NCBI RefSeq assembly: GCF_003859795.1
Contig: NZ_RQYI01000015.1
Location: 1-52,487, forward strand
Length of the DNA stretch: 52,487 nucleotides
Source: Alloprevotella sp. OH1205_COT-284
GTDB lineage: Bacteria > Bacteroidota > Bacteroidia > Bacteroidales > Bacteroidaceae
Direction of reading: 5' to 3'
Part shown: one piece after another, positions 1-12,265 of the stretch
How the letters are laid out: each line of letters starts with the position of its first letter
Numbering within the stretch: position 1 is the first letter of the stretch
Notes under the pieces: model-generated
Told to the model about the DNA's origin: nothing
Databases searched by the model: none
Seen by the model: the letters and a program-made list of their open reading frames with translations, nothing else
Program-made: the position numbers and the translations under genes

Positions 1-1
1 C

Positions 2-103
2 GGGCAACCCGTCATCGATGCTTTTTTCCGCATCTATGGCATCGACATCAAAAAGGCCGGATGCCTGAACATGGTCGATTTGGAAGTGGACAGAATAGGA
101 TAA
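2..103 (+). CDS. C-terminal end of an unidentified protein (truncated by window edge)
   Basis: An open frame enters from the left edge and ends at a TAA at 101-103. The 33 visible residues begin GQPVIDAFF and end DLEVDRIG. They are too few to assign a family. The stop lies only 21 bp before the ATG of the first dynamin-like GTPase, and no terminator or promoter is visible between them. The two genes are therefore probably cotranscribed, and this gene may belong to the GTPase system. Being a real coding end is moderately supported; its function is unknown. Confidence 0.55.
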   Translation, partial: GQPVIDAFFRIYGIDIKKAGCLNMVDLEVDRIG

Positions 104-124
104 AACTTTTTTAATTATATACGT

Positions 125-1753
125 ATGAACAATATGATGAAATATCAAGAGGCACTGGGTAAAGTGTCCGAAGTGTCAAATCTGCTCATCGGAGAGGCAC
201 AAAATAGTTTTAAGGTGAAATCGGAAGAGTTCATGGACGAAGTTCGAGCTTCACAATACATCAAAGTGCCGCTGGTGGGTGTGTTCAGTGCCGGAAAAAG
301 TTCGTTGCTGAATATCTTCACCGGAAAGTCGGGCATGTTGCCCGTCGACACCATGCCCGAAACGGCCGTGGCCTATGAGTTGTATTATGGAACGACCGAA
401 ACGGTGGAACTCTATCGCGACGGAACAAAAGTGGATATCAAGCCTCTCGCCGAGATTAAAAACCTCAACACGGAATCCGGCGACATCGCAAAAGTGTATT
501 GCACGAGCGAACCCATCAAACGCCTTCAAGAGAAAGACATCATTTTGGTAGACATGCCGGGAATAGGTTCGGGCATCAAGCGTCATGATGACGCCATTTC
601 CCACTACATCAACAGCGGCACGGCTTTTGTTTTGCTCGTGGACGCCGAGCAAGGATCGCTTCGCGGAAGCACATTGAGCTTCATGCAGGAGCTTTCTCAA
701 TACAAAATGTATCCGGCCGTGTTGGTTTCCAAAATCGACAAAAAACCGGAAGGAGATGTCAAGGAAATTGTGGACTACATCCGCTTTCAGATGTCAAAGC
801 TCGGCAACGAACAGCCTTTCGTCGGAACCGTATGCTCTGTAAACAACGATTTGGAGGGGCTCAACCGTTATCTTTCCGGATTAAATCCGGAGGCACTCGT
901 GGCCGAAAAACTTGGCAAGAAGTTCAAGTATCTGGTCGGCGGAGTGATCGAACAACTGAAAATGCGCATCGCTCTGCGCAGCAAAGACATTGCCGACGTC
1001 GATGAGAAAATCAAGCAAATCGATGAGGAAATCTCCAATGTGAAGACCGAGTTGCCCACCGAAAACTGCAATGCCGACACCCCGGAGAAGTCCACACAGG
1101 ATATTCTCGACAATGTTCGTTTCGCTCTCGAAGCCAAAGCCGGCGACATCGCGCAGATGATTGTCAATCGGGAAGACGAGGAGACCATCAAGGCGACCAT
1201 TCTGAGCATCGTCAGGGCAGAAATGATTTCTTCGTTCAAGGACGAAAGCGATCAATACTCCTCGGCACTGGGACTTGCCGTGCAAGAGTCGATGAAAGAC
1301 ATGGAAGCCATTAAGCTCTCTCCCGACTTCATGAGCGATTTTTCTCCCATCATAGAGCTGTTCAAAGGCCCCATTCTTGAGCTGTTACCCGTGGCTGCTC
1401 CTTGGAAGATGTTGTTGTCTGCTTTGTTGCCTTACTTGCCGAATATTCTAAGTCGCTTGTTTGGCAAGAACGAACAGGAAGCCGTTGAGGAAGTGCGTGG
1501 CAAGGTGATTGAACTATGTGTGCAACAAGTGCTGACAAGCATTCAGCCCATGGTGCTCAAAATCACAAAAGAAAATCAACAAAGAATACAAAAGCAGATT
1601 CAGGAAGAAGTGATCTCCAAAATGGAGAAGGTGAAAGCCGGACTTCGCGAGAAAATGGCCGATGCCCACAAAAACAAAGAAGAAGTGGAGGCCGAGCTCA
1701 CACAGCTGAATGCTGCCATTTCGCATCTCAATGCCGTTGTCGAAAGTGTTTAA
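125..1753 (+). CDS. Dynamin-like GTPase 1 (LeoA-like)
   Basis: The 542-aa protein has the GTPase motifs of the Dynamin_N family: P-loop GVFSAGKS at residues 52-59, G3 DMPG at 143-146 and G4 SKID at 202-205. A predicted helical region follows. A strongly hydrophobic, proline-containing stretch at about 402-445 looks like a membrane-inserting paddle. The last ~70 residues are charged and coiled-coil-like. This layout of GTPase head, helical stalk with hydrophobic tip, and returning helix is typical of bacterial dynamins such as LeoA. Such proteins bind and remodel membranes in a GTP-dependent way. The gene is close behind a truncated upstream gene, and a hairpin separates it from two further dynamin-like genes. 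Family assignment is firm; the biological role is inferred. Confidence 0.85.
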   Translation: MNNMMKYQEALGKVSEVSNLLIGEAQNSFKVKSEEFMDEVRASQYIKVPLVGVFSAGKSSLLNIFTGKSGMLPVDTMPETAVAYELYYGTTETVELYRDGTKVDIKPLAEIKNLNTESGDIAKVYCTSEPIKRLQEKDIILVDMPGIGSGIKRHDDAISHYINSGTAFVLLVDAEQGSLRGSTLSFMQELSQYKMYPAVLVSKIDKKPEGDVKEIVDYIRFQMSKLGNEQPFVGTVCSVNNDLEGLNRYLSGLNPEALVAEKLGKKFKYLVGGVIEQLKMRIALRSKDIADVDEKIKQIDEEISNVKTELPTENCNADTPEKSTQDILDNVRFALEAKAGDIAQMIVNREDEETIKATILSIVRAEMISSFKDESDQYSSALGLAVQESMKDMEAIKLSPDFMSDFSPIIELFKGPILELLPVAAPWKMLLSALLPYLPNILSRLFGKNEQEAVEEVRGKVIELCVQQVLTSIQPMVLKITKENQQRIQKQIQEEVISKMEKVKAGLREKMADAHKNKEEVEAELTQLNAAISHLNAVVESV

Positions 1754-1763
1754 CCCCTCAAAA

Positions 1764-1797
1764 AAGCTGTGTCAAGACGCATGTTTTGACACAGCTT
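1764..1797 (+). terminator. Hairpin terminator or attenuator after GTPase 1
   Basis: A perfect 12-bp stem (1764-1775 with 1786-1797, arms AAGCTGTGTCAA and TTGACACAGCTT) encloses a 10-nt loop, 10 bp after the stop of GTPase 1. The downstream T-run is weak, so termination may be partial. It marks a transcription boundary inside the GTPase cluster. Confidence 0.6.
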
Positions 1798-1851
1798 CAT
1801 TGGGCTTTGTGCATTGAGTGAGACGAAAATCCGAAAAGACAACGAATCAAA

Positions 1852-1878
1852 TTGAGATTTTCGTACGCAATACGTTTG
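1852..1878 (+). promoter_or_regulatory. Candidate promoter for the four-gene GTPase operon
   Basis: A TACGTTTG box at 1871-1878 matches the Bacteroidota -7 consensus TAnnTTTG. A TTG at 1852-1854 could be the -33 element, but the spacer is 16 bp rather than the usual 19-20, so the match is imperfect. The box lies about 50 bp before the ATG of GTPase 2, after the hairpin that follows GTPase 1. Confidence 0.35.
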
Positions 1879-1927
1879 TTTCGCCAAACCGCACACGGCT
1901 TTTACCCTATTTTATCTATTTCTCATT

Positions 1928-3988
1928 ATGGCCTTAGCAAGAAAAACAAATCCGCAAGCAGGAAGAAATGCCGTTAAACGGCAAGTGATCAAAGTGAATC
2001 CGTATGAAAATCCGGAAAATGTGATGGAACTGATGGCAAAGATCAGTTCTGCAACGGCTTCTGCCGATATGGATCAGTTTGGGGAACGTCTCGATACAGC
2101 TTTTTGTCAAGAAATTGAAGGGATGAGTTTGTCTGATTATCTTCCACAATATCGTTCCCTATTACTAAATGGGGATTTTTTAGCTGATTTAAGGACGTTA
2201 TGTAAGAACCTTTCTATTACTCTGGGAGCACACGAAAATACGAAGCATACACAGATTGTGGTGGCAGGAGGATTCTCTTCCGGAAAATCTTCTTTTCTGA
2301 ATCGCCTGACCAATAGCGCTAACTTGTTACCCACGGGCGTGGAACCGGTGTCGGTGGTGAAAACCTACTTGTATTGCTCGGGCAATAATCGCTCCGTTTC
2401 CGTCAGAGGAGTTAATTTGAAAAATGTGTTGGTCGATTTGGAACCCGGTGTGTTGCAGGCGATTCAGCATGCCAAACAATCGCATGTGTTTTTGGCCTCC
2501 GTTTTGGAAAAGTTGTTTGTGGAAATTCCTTCCAAAGATTTGGATGGTTTGGTTTTCATCGACACACCGGGCTACAACAATTCGGACAGAGCCAATCAGT
2601 CCAACGGAAAAACCGACAGAGAAACGGCCATGGAGGCTTTAAGCGAAGGCAATGTGCTCTTTTGGCTGGTCGATTGTGAACGAGGCACCACGGTGGCGGA
2701 CGATATAGAAATGATCAAGCAATTTGAGGGCAAGAAAGTGATTATTTTCAATAAAGCCGATAAGAAAGGAAAGCAGGAGGCGGTTCAGATTGTCAACAAT
2801 GCCGCTCGCACTTTGTTGCAGGAATTTCCGGAAGATATTATCGATATTTTGGCCTTATCCACCTTGGATAATATGATTTATTATTCCTATAATAAGAAAA
2901 CGATGGGACAGATCATTCAAGAGGCAAAGCAAAGCGGTAATGGGGATAATGGAAACATGTTATGGCGAAATGCCATCGAAGATATTTTTGATCAAGAAAT
3001 TGGTGCTTGTGAAGTCACAATTCAAAGTCTTAAAAAAGAATATAAAGAAGAATTGCTGCCTGAGAAAGAAGAGTGTCATACTGATTATCAAAACTCCAAA
3101 GAAATTAGTGATATTCAGATTAAAGAATTGAGAGAAGTTTGTCAAGAAAGTTATACCGAAGTTTTTAATACGATGAAAAAATATGAAGATTCCAACTATT
3201 TTGCTCTTAATCAGTTTTCTGAATTTATTGGAGAGATGTATGCATGGGATAATACAGAACATACATGTTGGGAGAATACGCTGACTCCAAAAATCAATGA
3301 AGGAGCTCGGCAGAATAAATTCGGATGGAATAGATACAATGCTATCAATTATGAATATTATGAAGCAGACTATCGAAAAGAACTTGTAGATTGGTTTGAA
3401 AGTATGGAGCAGCAGAGAATAGAGTTCTTTGAAAATTCTTATAATAAAGCGTGTCAGGATTGTGAAGATAATCTCGAACGTCAACAAGCAGAAAAAGAAA
3501 TGCACCAACGGATGTCGGCGTATAAAAACTTATTCATGAAGGCCCTTGATGAAGCCATTCGCACATATCAACGGCAGAATAAAGCCAAAAAGGTGTATGA
3601 TGACGCATACGTGGTGCCCAATGTGTTTGAGAGCATTCAAAAAGAAGACTATAAGGCTTTCTTGCGTAGCTTTGAAAACGGAGTGGATTTGGCGGTATGC
3701 AATCCGAACGGATATTCGCCTTTGACGCTTGCCGTGCAAATGGGCAACAACGAGATGGTGAAGTTTATGCTCGACCATGATGCCGACCCCTCGATAAAAG
3801 ACAGAAGAGGCTATAACGCGTTTCACACCGCTGTCGAAAACCAATATCGCGACATTTGCAAAATGCTCTTGGATGCGGATCCCGACTTGATAGCCACCAA
3901 AACGGAAAAAGGAGAAACCATCGAAGAGCTGGCGCGAAAACAAACGTTCAGCAAATGGATTGAACAAGAAATAAAAAATGCGTTCTAA
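1928..3988 (+). CDS. Dynamin-like GTPase 2 with C-terminal ankyrin repeats
   Basis: The 686-aa protein has P-loop GGFSSGKS at residues 114-121, G3 DTPG at 212-215 and G4 NKAD at 275-278, all well preserved. The middle (about 310-560) is charged, helical and rich in Glu, Lys, Tyr and Asn. The C-terminus (about 590-660) has two ankyrin-type repeats, seen as the phrases GYSPLTLAVQMGN and GYNAFHTAVENQ, each followed by a second helix. Ankyrin repeats usually mediate protein binding, so this tail may sense a partner or recruit the other GTPases. Base composition is mosaic: about 2860-3530 is much richer in A/T than the GTPase head and the ankyrin end. It ends 2 bp before GTPase 3, consistent with translational coupling. 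GTPase identity is firm; role is inferred. Confidence 0.85.
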   Translation: MALARKTNPQAGRNAVKRQVIKVNPYENPENVMELMAKISSATASADMDQFGERLDTAFCQEIEGMSLSDYLPQYRSLLLNGDFLADLRTLCKNLSITLGAHENTKHTQIVVAGGFSSGKSSFLNRLTNSANLLPTGVEPVSVVKTYLYCSGNNRSVSVRGVNLKNVLVDLEPGVLQAIQHAKQSHVFLASVLEKLFVEIPSKDLDGLVFIDTPGYNNSDRANQSNGKTDRETAMEALSEGNVLFWLVDCERGTTVADDIEMIKQFEGKKVIIFNKADKKGKQEAVQIVNNAARTLLQEFPEDIIDILALSTLDNMIYYSYNKKTMGQIIQEAKQSGNGDNGNMLWRNAIEDIFDQEIGACEVTIQSLKKEYKEELLPEKEECHTDYQNSKEISDIQIKELREVCQESYTEVFNTMKKYEDSNYFALNQFSEFIGEMYAWDNTEHTCWENTLTPKINEGARQNKFGWNRYNAINYEYYEADYRKELVDWFESMEQQRIEFFENSYNKACQDCEDNLERQQAEKEMHQRMSAYKNLFMKALDEAIRTYQRQNKAKKVYDDAYVVPNVFESIQKEDYKAFLRSFENGVDLAVCNPNGYSPLTLAVQMGNNEMVKFMLDHDADPSIKDRRGYNAFHTAVENQYRDICKMLLDADPDLIATKTEKGETIEELARKQTFSKWIEQEIKNAF

Positions 3989-3990
3989 AC

Positions 3991-6216
3991 ATGGATAGAA
4001 ATCAACTGTTAAACCTTATTCAGAAATCCGAAACCCAACTTGCACAGCTTAAAAGGATAGACTATGACGGTCTCAAAGGAGCCGTTACGGAGTTGGAAAG
4101 TGTTTTCAAAGAGTTTAAGGAGAGCGGCGAAGAGCTGCTCTCCGAAAACAACGTATTGCAGATCGGCATTGTGGGGCAGGTGAAGGCCGGCAAGTCTTCT
4201 TTCTTGAATTCCCTCTTTTTCAACGGAGAAGACGTGTTGCCGAAGGCTTCGACCCCGATGACGGCGGGACTGACCATTCTTGAATATTCGGAAAAGAACG
4301 TTTTTGAAGTGGAATACTTCAACGAAAAAGATTGGGAGATTTTTGTCAATCAAGACGAAGAATACAAGAAACGCGAACAGGAAGTGCGTACCGAAAATCA
4401 AGGCGCGCCCGAAAGCGTGATAAAAAAAGAATTGGAGAGCAGAACTTCCGAAAAAGTGCGCTCCGCCCACGAAATGGTGTCGGCTTGCAGCAGCAAAGCC
4501 CAACAGAAGATTGGCAGTCGAAACGATAGCAAGGAGTTTTACGACATCGATGATTTGCAGAATGTGTTGGAGCAGTATGTCGGTGCAAACGGAGAATACA
4601 CGTCGGTCGTGAAGAGTTTGTATATCAAGATGAACGACGAGCGACTGAAAGGCATGAAAATCGTGGATACGCCGGGAGTGAACGACCCGGTGGTGTCGCG
4701 CGAAAATCGCACGAGAACGTTTCTTCACAGTTGTCACGGAGTGTTTCTGCTGAGTGCCTCCACCGACTTCTTGGGGAGCGGAGATGTGGGATTTCTCAAC
4801 AACCGCATCGGAGGCTCGGGCATCGGGGCGGTGGTTTTGCTGGCCAGTAAATTCGACTCCGTGCTGCAAGACATCGGGGCGGAAAGAGAAATGAAGCAAG
4901 AGCCTCGCGGAGATTTGGTGGACACGGTGGAAATGCAAACCAAAAAGTTTAAGAAAAGGCTTCGAGAGCTGTCGGACACGATCGACGAGAAGCTGCGCGG
5001 CAGGCTCAAACTCGATACTACGGCCGGAATAGGCTACTCCATAGCCCGCAAACCATCGTCGAAGTGGGACAACGTGGAAAAACAGGTGGTGCAACAAATG
5101 AAACGCTACTATCCCGATTATTTCTCCACGGAGGCCAATGCGAAAGAGTCGTTTGAGGGATTGGCCAATATCGCAGAGATTCGAGAAAGCTATCTCGAAA
5201 GGCTGTTCATGGAAAATAAAGAAAGCATCATCGAGGAAAAGGTCAAGGAGTTTTTTGCGAAGAACAAAGAAAACATCTCTTCGAGCATCGAACGCATCCT
5301 GACGGGATACAAAAACCGACAGGAAGAGTTGAACAAAACGTCGATTGCCGAAATCAAACGGCAAAAGGAGATGCAACGCAAATTGTTTGATGAACTGAAA
5401 GATACATTCAAAAATGTCTTCAATCAATTTGCAAGAAACTTGAACGGCAATGTGACGAGCATTGCCAATAGAGTGCGCTTCAACGACATCAGAACGATAC
5501 CGACCGAGAGCATTGATGTTTCAATTACATGTAAAAGACCATGGTATAAAAAATGGCTTTCCGGTTCGGTGGATTTGGATATTGAGCAGGTGAATACCTT
5601 TGAATTGGGGCATCAAATCAGAAAATCGGTGGCAGAGTATGCAGAAGCTTGGAACACCGAATGGAGAAAGCTGTTTGATGAGACTCGAAAGGAGATGGCC
5701 GAGAAGTTGAACCGTGAGATCAGTGAATTTGAAAAGAAAATCATGAGCACCGCTTTCAAAGATTCTTATTATCGAAATCTGATCGATAGGGCTTTGGATG
5801 TGTTGCGTAATAGTAGGGAACTGGCTATCGGCGACATCATAGATGCCTATCAAAGAAGGGGAGACGATATTGCCAACAGACAATTCACCCCGTCGGGTAC
5901 AGAGGATTTGAAAGAAGAACGAGTGAGATCATATTTGGCGCAACAATTAAGAGACCACAATGCCGGACTGATCAATGCGTTTAGAAATCTGGCCGATGGA
6001 ATCAAGGAAGACATAAAGCAAGAAGTCAATAAGAAATGTGACGAAGCGGTGAGAGTGATAGAGGACATGAAGAAAAACTTTGCCGAAAAACTCAAAAAGG
6101 AAGGCGATGCCTATCTCGACGCACTCGAAAAAGACATGGCGGACAAAGTCGCCGTGTCGAAAAAAATGGACGACATCGTCAATTGCGTATCAGAATTATC
6201 CACTCTTTATCGATAA
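3991..6216 (+). CDS. Dynamin-like GTPase 3
   Basis: The 741-aa protein has P-loop GQVKAGKS at residues 62-69, a plausible G2 threonine in STPMTAG at 87-93, G3 DTPG at 226-229 and a G4-like SKFD at 286-289. Residues 90-200 form a long charged insertion between G2 and G3. After the GTPase head the protein is mostly charged helix or coiled coil to the end (about 400-741), with no clear transmembrane segment. This suggests a peripheral partner rather than the membrane-inserting member of the set. It follows GTPase 2 by 2 bp and precedes the next gene by 4 bp. It probably forms hetero-oligomers with the other two GTPases, as proposed for paired bacterial dynamins, but this is inference. Confidence 0.85.
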   Translation: MDRNQLLNLIQKSETQLAQLKRIDYDGLKGAVTELESVFKEFKESGEELLSENNVLQIGIVGQVKAGKSSFLNSLFFNGEDVLPKASTPMTAGLTILEYSEKNVFEVEYFNEKDWEIFVNQDEEYKKREQEVRTENQGAPESVIKKELESRTSEKVRSAHEMVSACSSKAQQKIGSRNDSKEFYDIDDLQNVLEQYVGANGEYTSVVKSLYIKMNDERLKGMKIVDTPGVNDPVVSRENRTRTFLHSCHGVFLLSASTDFLGSGDVGFLNNRIGGSGIGAVVLLASKFDSVLQDIGAEREMKQEPRGDLVDTVEMQTKKFKKRLRELSDTIDEKLRGRLKLDTTAGIGYSIARKPSSKWDNVEKQVVQQMKRYYPDYFSTEANAKESFEGLANIAEIRESYLERLFMENKESIIEEKVKEFFAKNKENISSSIERILTGYKNRQEELNKTSIAEIKRQKEMQRKLFDELKDTFKNVFNQFARNLNGNVTSIANRVRFNDIRTIPTESIDVSITCKRPWYKKWLSGSVDLDIEQVNTFELGHQIRKSVAEYAEAWNTEWRKLFDETRKEMAEKLNREISEFEKKIMSTAFKDSYYRNLIDRALDVLRNSRELAIGDIIDAYQRRGDDIANRQFTPSGTEDLKEERVRSYLAQQLRDHNAGLINAFRNLADGIKEDIKQEVNKKCDEAVRVIEDMKKNFAEKLKKEGDAYLDALEKDMADKVAVSKKMDDIVNCVSELSTLYR

Positions 6217-6220
6217 CAAC

Positions 6221-6886
6221 ATGAAAACGAAAATTGAAAAAATAAATCTTTCCATCGAAGAAAAGAAAGAACGTCTGAAAGAGAAAGCCGGACACTACTT
6301 CTCGGCCATTATCATTCCTACGTCGACAGAGGGAAGAGTGTCATCGGAGAAAGGGGCTAATCGCCCGATTGTTTATGCTTTGTATGGATTGGCGGCGGTT
6401 GCCGGATTGGGAGCCGTGGCCTCGGAGAGTTCCGGCTCGAAGGTGTTGGGCTTGGGCTTGGCGGCGGCCGGTGCATACGGCGCATATCGATTGTCGAAAA
6501 ACAACTCGCCCGAAGAAAACATCGGAAGCAAAACGCCCGAAAACAACATGACAACCGTCAAGAATGAAATCGTGACCAGAGTGAACGATGCGGTAAAAAG
6601 AACAATCGCCGAATGGGAGGAGTTCATGGAACTCAAACAAAAAGAAGTGCATGGCGCCATTGATTTTTCCGAGTTGGAAAGCTCTCGAAAAGAAGCCATG
6701 AGCTCGGCTACATTCACCTATGAAGTGATTGATATTCGCCTGATTGAATTCTCCGACATGATCAATGGCGCACAGAATGCGGCCGAAATAAAGCAGAGTA
6801 TCAATGACTACAAAGCAAAGCTGTTGAAAGCCATAGAAGTGGCGGCCGATAAGCAGATTGCCCGATATGGGGCATTGTTGCGATAA
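6221..6886 (+). CDS. Small protein with glycine-rich transmembrane hairpin, GTPase operon
   Basis: The ATG at 6221, 4 bp after GTPase 3, is chosen over an in-frame upstream ATG at 6080 that would overlap GTPase 3 by 137 bp. The 221-aa product starts with a charged amphipathic segment. Two hydrophobic segments follow at about 50-67 and 74-90, full of Gly and Ala in small-residue spacing (GLAAVAGLGAV, GLGLAAAGAYGAY) and joined by a short Ser/Gly turn. The rest is a soluble helical domain. I do not recognise the family. A Gly-zipper hairpin of this kind packs tightly in membranes and is found in membrane-anchoring and pore-forming proteins. In this operon it could be the membrane anchor or effector of the GTPases; that is inference. 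Confidence 0.75.
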   Translation: MKTKIEKINLSIEEKKERLKEKAGHYFSAIIIPTSTEGRVSSEKGANRPIVYALYGLAAVAGLGAVASESSGSKVLGLGLAAAGAYGAYRLSKNNSPEENIGSKTPENNMTTVKNEIVTRVNDAVKRTIAEWEEFMELKQKEVHGAIDFSELESSRKEAMSSATFTYEVIDIRLIEFSDMINGAQNAAEIKQSINDYKAKLLKAIEVAADKQIARYGALLR

Positions 6887-6928
6887 TGTTTGAAGCAAGA
6901 CAACAACTACTACACCAGCCGAATTGTC

Positions 6929-7339
6929 ATGGAACAAACGACATTGGAATTTTCCCACAACGCCCGCACCACCTATACGGCCATTAAGCATTTGTTTGAA
7001 ACACATCGCACCGAATTTTCGGGGATGAAGTTTGACGATGATTTGTTTGTGGTCGAGGCACGGCGCGGAGCTTGGTTGTCTCCGTTCTCGGAGAAGATCA
7101 AGATGAAAGTGGTGGCCGTGAGTGAGCGGACATGCCGGGTGGTGGTCAAGTCGTCGTCTCGTTCGATTTTCAATCTGCTTAATTTCGGAGCGAACAAGGG
7201 AAATGTCAATGAACTGTGCGATTATATCAATAATGCGGTTCATAAGCTGCACCACATCACCACCGTCTTGCCGGACGGAAGGGTGAAAGATCACTCCGAA
7301 ATAAGGATTGTCAGACCTGACATTCGTTTCAGATTATAG
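6929..7339 (+). CDS. Uncharacterised 136-aa protein, last gene of GTPase operon
   Basis: The frame can start at TTG 6890 (3 bp after the previous stop, 149 aa) or ATG 6929 (136 aa). The ATG is preferred because the product then begins directly with MEQTTLEF, and the extra 13 residues look like leader. The coupling distance would fit the TTG instead. The protein alternates strands and helices: a long helix with TYTAIKHLF, basic beta strands such as KIKMKVVAV and CRVVVKSSS, then a C-terminal helix ending near NNAVHKLHH. There are no transmembrane segments or catalytic motifs that I can see. A SRPBCC- or PH-like small fold is possible but not shown. Its position suggests an accessory part of the dynamin system. 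Confidence 0.7.
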   Translation: MEQTTLEFSHNARTTYTAIKHLFETHRTEFSGMKFDDDLFVVEARRGAWLSPFSEKIKMKVVAVSERTCRVVVKSSSRSIFNLLNFGANKGNVNELCDYINNAVHKLHHITTVLPDGRVKDHSEIRIVRPDIRFRL

Positions 7340-7341
7340 AA

Positions 7342-7377
7342 AAAGAGTCCGTTGCTATTCAATGCAACGGACTCTTT
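7342..7377. terminator. Bidirectional terminator between GTPase operon and minus-strand block
   Basis: A perfect 14-bp stem (7342-7355 with 7364-7377) encloses an 8-nt loop and has A/T runs on both sides. It sits 2 bp after the stop of the last GTPase-operon gene. Its right arm and loop also encode the last residues and stop of the convergent minus-strand gene. Confidence 0.85.
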
Positions 7378-8773
7378 CTATATTGTATTTTTCCAATTCG
7401 CTTTGTCGGGTGCTGATGTAGAGCATAAATTCGTCGAAGGCCAAATAGGTGTGGCCGTTCATGAGCATGATGCCGACATCGTCGCTAATGCGGATTTGAT
7501 CGAAGCCTTCAAAGGAGGATTTGGGAACTTTGAAAAATTCATCTTCGTTTTCAGAGAGGATGTAGAGATGAGTGGGGGTGATGGCGTAAAGGGCTGTTCG
7601 AAATTCGTATTCCAAATGTTCGTATGGCTTGATGATTTCGCAATCTTTGGAAAGCCATCTGTCGTAAATGTCGGTTACGGCCTTGTCGGTGCATTTGGTG
7701 AGGGAGAGGGATTGCGGCCAAACATGGGAACTCAACATCCGCTGCAAAGGAAGAACGACGGTGTCGGAATGATCGGGCATTTCCGTTTGGTACCACACTT
7801 GGTCGCTATCGCCATAGGACTGTCCCTGCATGCGGTGGGCGATGGCTTCGGGGTGTAGGATGTAGGCGATCAGACTGCCGTTGATGTGTTTGACAAGGAA
7901 AAGGGTGTAGCGGATGCCGGTCAGGCGGTTGTCGGCATCTTTGTGCCAATGGGTCATGAAATAGGTGCCGTCGTCTGCGGTGGGTTCGATTTGCCAAAAA
8001 TGGGTGTAGAGGAGTTTGCCCTCACATTCGTTCCAATAGCCTTCGATGTTCAGCCCCACGCGGTTTTGTTTCAAGTAGTCTGTCATGTCGTACATATTCT
8101 CGTTTGCCGCATAGCTTTCGTGTATGTGGAGTATTTGCGAAACATGAAACAAAAGCATGATTCGGGTTTTGTGTGGCTCTTCTCTTGCCTGCGTAATGCT
8201 TGGGAACAGGTGATGAAAGAAGTGGGTGACGGCCAACTTTTCAAAGAAACTCATGACGCGCTCAAACAGACGGGGCATGTCGATGACGTCGCCGTCTTTC
8301 GATTCATAGCCGGGTATGGCTTTGAGAAGCATCAGCAGAATGAAAGGGATATGGAGGTTGTGTTCAATGATGTGACGATATAGCGTTTCTCGCTTGGGAG
8401 GAATGTTGTCGGACCGATTGGGGGGATAGCAATAGAGGATCAGTTCTTGTGCGATCTCTTCGTATGTTGTACGTCTTTGAAGTTTTTCGTGATAGAATTT
8501 CCATGCTTTTCGATAGTGCGACATCACGCTGTCGAGCCGGAGTTGGCCGTCGGTATATAGTTCGACTTCGACTTTCAAATCTCGAAAAGCGGCACGAAGT
8601 TTCTGAGGGGTGGAGAAACTGCGCTTGATGCCATTGCCATGGATAGAACGATTGTCGAGCATGGTTTCAAGCTCTTCCATGGTGTTGTAAATGAGTCTTG
8701 TGTTGGCTATGGTGGTCAGCCATTCTTCGTATCGGGGGGCTTCTTTCATCATAATGGTGCGAAGATATTTCAT
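7355..8773 (-). CDS. Uncharacterised protein, ~472 aa
   Basis: The open frame extends up to 8881, but the first ~36 codons look non-coding. The start beginning MKYLRTIMMK at 8773 is preferred. The product is soluble, acidic and aromatic-rich, and has no signal peptide or transmembrane segment. The N-terminal third is helical (PRYEEWLTTIANTRL). The C-terminal half has many short strands (GTYFMTHWHKD, SLIAYILHPE). I recognise no known domain. It is the last gene after aroE on the minus strand with a 142-bp gap, so it may be transcribed with it. It ends inside the convergent terminator hairpin. Confidence 0.7.
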   Translation of the reverse strand: MKYLRTIMMKEAPRYEEWLTTIANTRLIYNTMEELETMLDNRSIHGNGIKRSFSTPQKLRAAFRDLKVEVELYTDGQLRLDSVMSHYRKAWKFYHEKLQRRTTYEEIAQELILYCYPPNRSDNIPPKRETLYRHIIEHNLHIPFILLMLLKAIPGYESKDGDVIDMPRLFERVMSFFEKLAVTHFFHHLFPSITQAREEPHKTRIMLLFHVSQILHIHESYAANENMYDMTDYLKQNRVGLNIEGYWNECEGKLLYTHFWQIEPTADDGTYFMTHWHKDADNRLTGIRYTLFLVKHINGSLIAYILHPEAIAHRMQGQSYGDSDQVWYQTEMPDHSDTVVLPLQRMLSSHVWPQSLSLTKCTDKAVTDIYDRWLSKDCEIIKPYEHLEYEFRTALYAITPTHLYILSENEDEFFKVPKSSFEGFDQIRISDDVGIMLMNGHTYLAFDEFMLYISTRQSELEKYNIERVRCIE

Positions 8774-8915
8774 AAAAGGATGTCTGCGGAGGAAAAGGCA
8801 GAGCGATTGCAGTCGGTGCAAGGAAAAAGTCGTGATTTTGTATCCATATACGAAGAGGAAGTGGGAGAAACGGCAGCGCAACCTCTAAAACAGCGGCTTG
8901 ACGGGTCGCGAAACA

Positions 8916-9689
8916 TCATTCTTGCCAGATCTTCCAAGCGGCGAGAGCTTGCAAATGAAGCATTTCGAGGCCGTTTTTGATAGTGGCGCCTTGCATGCGA
9001 CCGAGGGCGAGAAAGCGAGTTTCGAGAGGATTGTAGATTAAATCGTACAGAAGATGCCGATCGGTCAGTGCTTCGTAGGGGAGGGCGGGAGCTTCGGCTT
9101 CGCGAGGGTGCATGCCGAGCGGAGAGCAATTGACAATGAGGTGTACGGACGCGAAGTGAGCGGGAAGGAGTTCGGCATATTCGACAACGGGAACGGAAAC
9201 ACCCCCTACGTTCATTGTTTCGGCATGACGTGTGCGTGTGACGAAGGTGGGCGAAATACCCAAACGATGAAGGCCATAGACCACGGCACGCGATGCGCCT
9301 CCCGTGCCGAGAACAAAGGCACGGCGGTGGTGTGGACGGAGCAGGGGGCGGAGGCTGTCGGTGAAGCCGATGAAGTCGGAATTGAAACCGTGAAGCAGGA
9401 TTTTTCCATCGGTCTTTCGCTCGACGCGCACCACATTGACAGCTCCGATGGTTTGAGCTTCGGAAGAAAGTGTGTCGAGATGGGCTATCACGGCTTGTTT
9501 GTGGGGAATGGTCACGTTGAAGCCGACGAGGTCGGGATGATCTTCGACAAAGGAGCGAAGATCATCGACGGTGGGGAGATCGAAGTTGTCGTAGCGGGCG
9601 GAGATGCCCTCTCGTTTGAACTTTTCGGAAAAGAAACCTGCCGAAAAACTATGACCGAGGGGATGGCCGATGAGTCCGTATTGAAGCAT
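8916..9689 (-). CDS. aroE: Shikimate dehydrogenase
   Basis: The 257-aa cytosolic enzyme reduces 3-dehydroshikimate to shikimate with NADPH in aromatic amino acid and folate precursor synthesis. Visible signatures are the shikimate-binding start GLIGHPLGHSFS, the NVTIPHK segment with the catalytic lysine, the dinucleotide-binding GTGGASRAV near residue 120, and the NCSPLGM motif in the second half. Length is normal for compact AroE. It follows ubiE by 69 bp on the same strand and is probably in the same transcript. Confidence 0.95.
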   Translation of the reverse strand: MLQYGLIGHPLGHSFSAGFFSEKFKREGISARYDNFDLPTVDDLRSFVEDHPDLVGFNVTIPHKQAVIAHLDTLSSEAQTIGAVNVVRVERKTDGKILLHGFNSDFIGFTDSLRPLLRPHHRRAFVLGTGGASRAVVYGLHRLGISPTFVTRTRHAETMNVGGVSVPVVEYAELLPAHFASVHLIVNCSPLGMHPREAEAPALPYEALTDRHLLYDLIYNPLETRFLALGRMQGATIKNGLEMLHLQALAAWKIWQE

Positions 9690-9758
9690 GGAGAGTGGTG
9701 TGGAGAGAAAGAAGAAAAGCCCCTGAGGGCTTGAAAAGAAATGGGTTTCCGATACCTC

Positions 9759-10496
9759 TTATTTGGCAGCGGTGTATAGGGTGGAGAGACCGAAGGTGAA
9801 GCGACGGAAGCGCACATCGGTATATCCTGCTTTTCGTAGAATTTCCTGCATGACTTCGCCCTGCGGAAAAGCCTCCATGGTGGCCGGAAGATAGGTGTAG
9901 GCGCGTGCGTCGTGCGATACGGTTTTTCCGACGATCGGCATGAGTATGCGCGAGTAAAAGCGGAAAAGTTGTTTCATGGGAAAACGGACGGGAGTGGTCA
10001 GTTCGATGATGACCAATCGGCCGCCGGGACGGAGCACACGGCGCATCTCTTGCAATCCGCGATCGAGATCTTCAAAATTGCGCACGCCGTAGGCCACGGT
10101 TACGGCATCGAAACTGTTGTCGGGGATGTCGAGTTGCATGCAGTCGGCTTTGCGCAGGGTGATGCGGTCGGAGAGGCCTTGTTGTTCCACCTTTTCGCGT
10201 CCGACACGCAGCATTCCCTCCGAAAGATCGACGCCGAGAATGCTGTCGAGGTTGAGGCGACGCATGGCGAGAAGGGCAAAGTCGCCTGTTCCGGTGGCGA
10301 CATCGAGCAGACGTTTCGGAGCGAAAGGGCGCAGGCTGTCGATGGCGGTGCGACGCCACGAACGGTCGATGCCGAGCGAGAGGACGTGATTGAGAAAATC
10401 GTAGGAATGGGCAATGCTGTCGAACATTTGTTCGACCTGCCGGCCTTTCGCACCCTCGGGGGAGTAGGGTTTGATCTGTTCTTGCTGATAGTTCAT
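9759..10496 (-). CDS. ubiE: Demethylmenaquinone methyltransferase (UbiE/MenG)
   Basis: The 245-aa class I SAM-dependent methyltransferase performs the last step of menaquinone synthesis, C-methylation of the demethylated quinone. The start at 10496 ([11 protein letters not shown]) is chosen because the frame open further upstream is the shadow of the CLC gene. Family signatures include [18 protein letters not shown] motif I DVATGTGD at about 65-72, and [15 protein letters not shown] with RVLRPGG. It begins 11 bp after the CLC stop. In this phylum the quinone is menaquinone, so the MenG role is expected. Confidence 0.93.
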
Positions 10497-10507
10497 GCGG
10501 AGGGTAT

Positions 10508-12265
10508 TTATTCTTCGGAGAAGTCTTTGAGAATTTCGCGATAAGCACTGTAAAGGCGGGCTTGTGAAACGAAACCTACGTAGTAGCCGTCGGCATCGGT
10601 GACGGGAAGCGTTCCGGCATCGTTTTTTTGGAACTTGTCCATGATGTCCTGCATGCTGTCGTCGGTGCGGACGATGGCGTGGGGTTGTGACATCAGCCCG
10701 TTGACGGTGAAGGAATTGTAGAGCTCCGAGCGGAAGATGAGATGACGAATGTTGTTGATGTTTACTACGGCGAGCAACTTTTTGTCGGGAGAGCAAACGG
10801 CAAAGTGCAAACGTTTGCTGCTCGAAACGAGTTGGAGCATCTTGCCGAGCGTCATGTCGGGCGAGAGAATGGGGCGGCTCTTGTCGGTGACATCTTCGAG
10901 ATTCATCAGTGTGAGTACGCTTTGGTCTTTGTGGTGAGTGAGCAGTTCTCCCCGCCGTGCCAAACGCATCGAATAAATGCTGTGAGGCTCGAAGGTGTGG
11001 ATGACGAGATAGCTGATGGCCGATACGATCATTAAGGGTACAAGCAGGCGGTAGCCGCCGGTGAGTTCGGCAATGAGAAAAATGCCGGTCAGCGGAGCAT
11101 GAAAAACGGCACTCATCACTCCTGCCATGCCGTAAAGGCAAGAGTTGGTCGGCGGAAGGGTGATGCCGAAGGGGGCGAACTGATTCCATACTTGCGAGAA
11201 AGTGTAGCCGGTGAGGCAACCCAAAAAGAGGGAAGGGGCGAACGTTCCGCCACAACCGCCGCCGCCGTTGGTGGCTGTGGCGGCAAAGACTTTCAGCAAA
11301 ATGATCAGTCCGAGGTAGAGCAAAATCCACCGCTCGTGACCGTAGAACAAGGAGTTGTTCATCACATCGACGGCATCGCCGGTAGTCGTACTGTTGAGTA
11401 GGGTGGAGATAGTGCCGTAGCCTTCGCCGTATAGCGGAGGAAACAGATAGATCAAAAGTGCCAAAACCATTCCGCCCATGATCCAGCGCACATATAGATT
11501 GCCGAAGCGGGCGAAGACGCGCTCGAAGGCATTCATGACACGAGTGAAATAGAGTCCGATAAGCCCACACAATACGCCCAAAAGGATAGTGCTCGGCACG
11601 CGTTCAACGATGAAAGGATCGTTGAGCGCGATGTGAAACATGGTGCCGCTACCCGAAAGAAAGTAGCTCACGCAAGCTGCCGACGCGCAGGAAATGAGCA
11701 GTGGAACGAGGGAGGACATCGTGAGGTCGATCATCAATACTTCGATCGTGAAGACCAAACCGGCTATGGGGGCTTTGAAGATGCCTGCCACTGCCCCCGA
11801 AGCACCGCATCCGACGAGGATCATCAGTGTGCGGTGGTCGAGATCGAACCAACGCCCGATGCGGCTGCCCAAGGCGGAGCCCGTCAGAACGATAGGCGAC
11901 TCCGCTCCGACCGAACCGCCGAAACCGATGGTAAGACCGGAGGCGACCATTGAAGACCAAGTGTTGTGGGAGCGCAGAAAACCTTGGTTACGCGAAAGGG
12001 CATAGAGAATTTTGGTGACGCCGTGCCCGATGTTGTCGCGGACGATGTATTTGATGAACAGGGCAGACAGCAGGATGCCGACGGCCGGATAGAGGAGATA
12101 GAGCGGATTGGAGCTGTCGACGGTGAAATTTCGGGTGAGAAACTCTTCGACGCTGTGGATGAACCATTTCAAGAGGTTGGCAGCCAGTCCGGAAGCCAAT
12201 CCGACGCATAAGCTGAGCAGCAAAACAAACTGCCGTTGCGTGAGTTTTTGTTGAATGCCAAGCAT
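10508..12265 (-). CDS. CLC-family anion channel/transporter with CBS domains
   Basis: The 585-aa inner-membrane protein has the CLC core of many helices (about 1-430) and two C-terminal CBS domains (about 455-580) that usually bind adenine nucleotides and gate transport. The motif with the external gating glutamate is present ([10 protein letters not shown]), as is the [11 protein letters not shown] ion-binding loop. The usual GSGIP selectivity motif reads GHGVT. The position of the internal proton-transfer glutamate (E203 in E. coli ClC-ec1) appears to be Val, in the phrase FTIEVLM. This suggests a proton-uncoupled channel rather than a Cl-/H+ exchanger, an inference from alignment by eye. 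It is spaced 11 and 17 bp from its neighbours in the operon. Confidence 0.92.

Follow-up and report, generated by a model that had tools for sequence, protein, structure and literature searches.

Three dynamin-like GTPase genes in a row, followed by two small genes, raise the questions of whether they form one system, which of their neighbours belong to it and what such a system might do. The genes lie at positions 125–7339 of a 52,487-nucleotide stretch of Alloprevotella sp. OH1205_COT-284 (the window), which corresponds to bases 1–52487 of contig C7 in a source genome of 2.3 Mb in 93 contigs. All five reported open reading frames (ORFs; here D1, D2, D3, S4 and S5) are present there on the forward strand. 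A preliminary description had treated them as one transcript, possibly with a role in defence or membrane repair. The unit identified here is D1-D2-D3-S4, led in the window by a DUF6140 gene.

The three GTPases, D1 (125–1753; 542 amino acids), D2 (1928–3988; 686 amino acids) and D3 (3991–6216; 741 amino acids), each contain a Dynamin_N domain scoring above the Pfam cut-off of 27 bits (63.8, 55.9 and 71.9 bits, respectively). D2 also carries C-terminal ankyrin repeats (approximately residues 562–686), which are identified as Ank_2 at 51.9 bits against a cut-off of 27.3 and are recovered in a structure model and its fold match. The earlier view of three distinct dynamins, one of them ankyrin-tailed, thus holds, as does its statement that the GTP-binding motifs are visible, since all three proteins retain an intact P-loop, DxPG and KxD. 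By domain and motif they are members of the dynamin superfamily, and membrane remodelling by GTP hydrolysis is predicted for them. They fall into three subfamilies, designated alpha (D1), gamma (D2) and beta (D3), to which relatives in Bacteroidota, Pseudomonadota and Deferribacterota correspond one to one.

Relatives were gathered by genome searches and one scan of genome contigs, and the conserved loci form two classes. Class A comprises six loci (the window, L021, L023, L024, L032 and L033), in all of which D1, D2, D3 and S4 follow one another in the same order on one strand; this recurrence indicates that their association is more than chance. Class B comprises five loci (L022 and L028–L031), all encoding alpha, a small membrane-anchored coiled-coil protein, gamma and beta, where gamma has an N-terminal membrane helix and a coiled coil and no ankyrin repeats. 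An ankyrin-only Streptococcus match (L034) and L084, which is apparently the same contig as L033 (both of 80,940 bases, with the same identities), were dropped before counting. Dynamin clusters of Ruegeria, Rhodobacter and Lachnospira fall outside alpha, beta and gamma and were left out of the counts.

The fourth constant class A gene, S4 (6221–6886, starting at ATG 6221), encodes a 221-residue protein modelled as helical, with two Gly/Ala-rich hydrophobic stretches (residues 50–68, mean hydropathy 1.83, and residues 75–93, 0.79) forming a putative membrane hairpin. A hairpin membrane protein beside the dynamins had been noted before, and its conservation with the trio in every class A locus agrees with that observation. 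The protein is divergent, sharing 20–37% identity with the window copy, and blastp at E ≤ 1e-4 still links all five relatives. No match above cut-off to residues 4–221 is found in Pfam, PADLOC or NCBIfam, comparison of the model with PDB and viral folds gives nothing at E ≤ 0.001, and the best PDB sequence match reaches E 0.2 (E 0.23 for S5); neither small protein has a match among the plasmid records searched.

The last of the five genes, S5 (6929–7339; 136 amino acids), is rejected as a component of the system. It is present in only two of the six class A loci (the window and, in broken form, L021) and in one of the five class B loci, is missing from the other four class A loci, and occurs apart from dynamins in three fetched stretches (L025–L027), the first of which is an entire contig of 8.5 kb. 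The proposed co-occurrence of five genes therefore stands for D1-D2-D3-S4 and falls for S5, which is a neighbour at the 3' end and not the further operon partner it was taken for. Its start is most likely ATG 6929 and not the TTG at 6890 previously assigned, because the alignments of its relatives begin there. S5 has a possibly DUF1499-like appearance; in Pfam it finds nothing at E ≤ 1.

Profiles of the three subfamilies, built from the six class A members, each pick one relative in plasmids of Photobacterium, Escherichia albertii and Pseudomonas aeruginosa and in Calditerrivibrio, which belongs to another phylum. In these four, most of the protein is covered by the matches of alpha (E 2e-54 to 5e-68) and by those of beta (E 7e-69 to 2e-80), and the gamma matches (E 2e-20 to 8e-36) cover the GTPase region. 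A genome from another class of Bacteroidota (G1109) also contains all three (191.9, 124.6 and 261.2 bits). Its trio (L138, 5773–8873) encloses a TerB/beta-helix gene (39.1 bits; cut-off 24.4) and a gene with a possible SIR2-like match, which at 14.8 bits lies below the cut-off of 24.5 and has no PADLOC match. When 56 GTPase domains, G1109 not among them, are placed in a maximum-likelihood tree, alpha (15 rows) and beta (16 rows) form clades with support of 99/96 and 100/97, respectively, and the class A alpha, beta and gamma subtrees agree broadly, though inexactly.

The subfamilies differ in what surrounds the GTPase domain. All 14 alpha copies computed contain a 19-residue hydrophobic segment (mean hydropathy 1.59–2.2) at residues 415–465, which in D1 is a paddle-like segment at about residues 417–435, while the hydropathy maximum of class A beta and gamma does not exceed 1.28. 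The extra domain of gamma varies by lineage: it is an ankyrin array in class A, a long coiled coil with SMC-like matches in Pseudomonas and a weakly coiled-coil-like N-terminus in Calditerrivibrio, and the 405-residue Escherichia gamma is bare. On account of these features, alpha may be the membrane-binding subunit and gamma an adaptor or sensor. The L033 gamma (9001–10923) contains a near-exact tandem copy of one ankyrin repeat, as if the array were changing. The fourth gene varies as well: class A has S4, class B a membrane protein with a coiled coil, E. coli an 829-residue CFI-box protein, and G1109 the TerB/beta-helix and possible SIR2-like proteins already described. Among the Escherichia plasmid trios (L045, L079 and L080), the CFI-box-CTERM protein (829 residues or split) follows the trio in L079 and L080; an insertion sequence interrupts the beta gene of L079, and that of L080 is split in the annotation.

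The distribution of the set is accessory, patchy and partly plasmid-borne. Genome counts are lower bounds, as few candidates were scored per genome. The D2 profile (E ≤ 1e-20) detects the set in at least 6 of 399 genomes of the family (five class A, one class B), and the single D2 protein (E ≤ 1e-10) in at least 9 of 201 (four class A, five class B). The order sample at 1e-30 returns one genome out of 393, the window's own, and beta is found in 2 of 395 genomes of the phylum. A near-identity search locates the Escherichia trio in 5 of 5,426 E. coli genomes, on plasmids in all five. Among 72,556 plasmid records (E ≤ 1e-5), the window gamma matches 15, all of which are among the 18 records matched by beta and 14 of which are among the 18 matched by alpha. 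At the chromosomal site, the operons of the window and of G142 flank aroE on the same side and point in opposite directions. An aroE match is present in 53 of 58 genomes of the genus, and none of 19 further sites fetched contains trio genes on that side (2.9 to 12 kb), so the operon occupies 2 of 21 aroE sites. In G712, of the same genus, the operon is the same copy as that of L033 (Bacteroidales bacterium) and lies on an 80,940-base contig other than that of aroE. In phages, D3 has no match in 50,697 records, viral contigs scanned with two peptide patterns only contain no relative, and the Pseudomonas alpha has one weak match (E 5e-6). PHROGs gives a single match, between the helical part of D3 and a tape-measure family (29.8 bits), which is taken as coiled-coil likeness and set aside.

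Taken at about even confidence, the locus encodes a three-dynamin machine for membrane remodelling that is accessory, has spread horizontally and includes a partner anchored in the membrane. In such a machine, D1 would bind the inner membrane via its paddle-like segment, and D2 and D3, predicted to be soluble in the form found in the window, would join it in a hetero-oligomer; there the GTPase domains would act on one another, following the pattern of the bacterial dynamin pairs already known. S4 would be seated in the membrane by its hairpin, with its helices positioning the assembly, and the ankyrin tail of gamma may recognise a partner or trigger, a task that could fall to the coiled coil or membrane anchor in other lineages. 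GTP hydrolysis would cluster, tether or reseal membrane, most likely limiting phage-caused damage or delaying lysis. For the system as a whole we favour a role that protects the membrane and is probably directed against phage, a guess that we would expect to prove right about as often as wrong.

The case for defence is drawn from the patchy spread, the plasmid carriage and one neighbourhood. Just upstream of the Pseudomonas aeruginosa plasmid trio (L046 / L141) is a WYL gene, and beyond it are ZorC (702.1 bits) and ZorD (453.5 bits for the stretch scanned). Co-localisation of WYL regulators with defence systems has been reported (PMC9122601, excerpt), and 'Dynamins' and 'Eleos' are counted among defence systems in two surveys (PMC12629846 and PMC11811056, excerpts). 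Integrases are located downstream of the same trio. The defence role suggested earlier thus gains a defence neighbourhood in one distant relative, but the right flank of the window reads as core chromosome, since from about 8.9 kb on it contains ordinary genes, named by eye (aroE, a menaquinone-type methyltransferase, a ClC-type channel and others); the role may still be proposed for the window copy.

A number of observations weigh against this reading. No defence gene was recognised by eye in the window flank, where PADLOC was run on the 508-residue neighbour only. The Zorya/WYL neighbourhood belongs to one lineage, and the names annotated beside that trio do not include ZorA or ZorB. The Photobacterium trio lies between the conjugation genes traU and traN, the Escherichia trios adjoin parM/ParA partition genes, and beta genes are broken in some Escherichia plasmids. 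Ten of the 15 plasmid records with gamma are closely related Escherichia plasmids, which leaves five independent lineages. The trio is not always complete, as a Moraxella plasmid contains beta (6e-63) and gamma (4e-25) with no alpha seen, and the gamma clade (16 rows; 92/43) is weakly supported, with a Shimodaira–Hasegawa-like approximate likelihood-ratio test (SH-aLRT) value of 43. The parts suggested for S4 and the ankyrin tail are read from their anatomy. Finally, D1 and D2 are separated by 174 bp containing a hairpin, so that the genes may not share a single transcript.

The plasmid neighbours just mentioned would suit a trio that serves its carrier plasmid or island (in conjugation, entry exclusion or stability) and not the cell, as would the plasmid location of every E. 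coli trio found; the Bacteroidota copies (window, G142 and G1109), however, lie among chromosomal-looking genes with no conjugation genes noticed by eye, and a mobile-element function is regarded as the least probable of the alternatives. Another candidate is a general envelope-stress machine, in which the trio would repair or stabilise the inner membrane under antimicrobial or other stress and have no phage-specific part. A housekeeping repair function would be expected to be widespread, whereas the set is rare and patchy (5/399, 1/393 and 2/395 genomes) and often plasmid-borne, and this explanation is therefore considered unlikely, although it is the strongest of the rivals. A vesicle-release or secretion machine, as proposed for LeoABC, would have the trio raise the output of outer-membrane vesicles. 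Deletion of leoA, leoB or both cuts the vesicle cargo of enterotoxigenic Escherichia coli (ETEC) by about half (PMC4159319, excerpt), and Leo profiles detect some triad members, the best being a class B beta with LeoBC; nevertheless, at E ≤ 1 the NCBIfam LeoA family does not list D1 and the Leo profiles give no match to D3, and no vesicle or secretion genes were noticed by eye beside the class A loci, so that such a function appears rather improbable.

The membrane-protective, probably anti-phage reading can be extended to a cross-phylum immune machine of three obligate dynamins, in which alpha and beta would form an unvarying core that acts on the membrane, gamma would be a sensor arm open to exchange (ankyrin, coiled coil or membrane anchor) and the fourth subunit, S4 in the window, would be lineage-specific. 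This extension is put forward tentatively, with somewhat more doubt than belief; if it were true, the logic of the machine would parallel, in bacteria, that of Mx- or mitofusin-like innate immunity. Most descriptions of bacterial dynamins concern single genes or pairs. A trio that travels together, in which two subunits stay constant and the third exchanges recognition-like domains, bears on how hetero-oligomers divide their work and are triggered, since it makes directly testable which subunit senses, which binds membrane and whether all three GTPases are needed. If phage-protective, the trio would add a defence type unnamed in the profile libraries searched.

As regards the remaining features of the locus, the window starts at base 1 of contig C7, and its left end is therefore a contig end. 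Bases 2–103 (forward strand) encode the last 33 residues and stop codon of a DUF6140 protein (profile match E 2.3e-14; full-length relatives are DUF6140, PF19637), so that D1 is not the first gene. A DUF6140-like gene precedes alpha in three of the six class A loci (the window, where it is cut; L021, with one ORF between; and L033) and in four of the five class B loci, the L031 copy being divergent and none being found in L029. The source genome contains three copies, located at 2–103 of the window, C27:22046–22141 (L117) and C14:24132–24344 (L116). Over its first 90 bases the window is identical to the end of contig C27, which indicates that the assembly broke in an exact repeat; the C27 copy leads a different operon, with a 530-residue zinc-ribbon-like gene next. 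DUF6140 occurs in 31 of 151 genomes of the family, standing at the head of dissimilar accessory operons in the manner of a common 5' handle, and a literature search for it yielded no paper.

The intergenic gaps are short between D2 and D3 (2 bp) and between D3 and S4 (4 bp), and reach 42 bp between S4 and S5. The strong hairpin in the D1/D2 gap (1764–1797, forward strand; 15-bp stem) was found in a fold of 1740–1935 (z −3.90 against 200 shuffles); it is a possible attenuator or terminator. A terminator-like hairpin of 14 pairs follows S5 (7342–7377, forward strand) and has the longest stem in a scan of bases 1–9000, which returned 17 such hairpins against 10.0 expected (standard deviation 3.3). 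Rfam has no match in bases 1–12000 of the window. The 508-residue gene on the reverse strand (7355–8881) belongs to no known family, is present in 12 of 151 genomes of the family and adjoins dynamin, DUF6140 or S5 clusters in the window, L021, L025, L028, L110 and L113.

Among known systems, LeoABC of ETEC and Eleos resemble the unit in having adjacent dynamin genes on accessory DNA, and Eleos is likewise counted as a dynamin-like defence system (PMC11811056, excerpt). The statement that these systems use two or three dynamins is misleading, as LeoC (206 amino acids) and LeoB (572 amino acids) are reported to be the two parts of a single split dynamin (PMC4159319, excerpt). Leo thus has two dynamins, LeoA and the split one, as against the three full ones of the window, each with P-loop, DxPG and KxD, and neither an ankyrin tail nor S4 is described for Leo in the same excerpt. 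The PADLOC Leo models, for which no cut-off is given, score D1 at 33.7 bits (LeoA) and D2 at 26.5, have no match to D3 at E ≤ 1 and reach their best score among the relatives with a class B beta (LeoBC, 63.4 bits over most of the profile). The NCBIfam LeoA family (NF041922, cut-off 325 bits) does not include D1 at E ≤ 1 and gives the Pseudomonas alpha 25.5 bits; the LeoA structure 4AUR is missing from the PDB matches of the D1 profile at E ≤ 1, an absence and not proof. In view of the LeoA cut-off and the two-dynamin layout, the unit is not assigned to LeoABC/Eleos, and the system is kept as a relative because the PADLOC Leo models detect triad members.

DynA of Bacillus subtilis is likewise a bacterial membrane dynamin and delays phage lysis (PMC8844932, excerpt), but it is a single fused two-dynamin protein, and D1 scores 30.2 bits against the NCBIfam DynA cut-off of 1600. 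The earlier claim that the unit matches no named system therefore agrees with the profile libraries tested, in which it falls short of both the LeoA and DynA cut-offs. Cj-DLP1 and Cj-DLP2 of Campylobacter are encoded by adjacent genes and form a membrane-tethering hetero-oligomer, the form in which bacterial dynamins are described as acting (PMC6104087, excerpt). They appear among the PDB sequence matches of D1 and D3 and the fold matches of D2, but are two dynamins matching D1 and D3 mainly in the GTPase region, with no ankyrin tail or hairpin partner described in that excerpt. The trio plausibly works, by analogy, like the Campylobacter pair and DynA. The unnamed trios of class B, Pseudomonadota and Calditerrivibrio have one member each of the same three subfamilies and differ in being without the ankyrin tail and S4. 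No paper on an ankyrin-tailed or three-dynamin bacterial system was recognised among the open-licence papers listed, and the unit in the window, unnamed in the libraries and papers searched, belongs to a three-dynamin set that crosses phyla, of which it represents the Bacteroidales form with ankyrin repeats.

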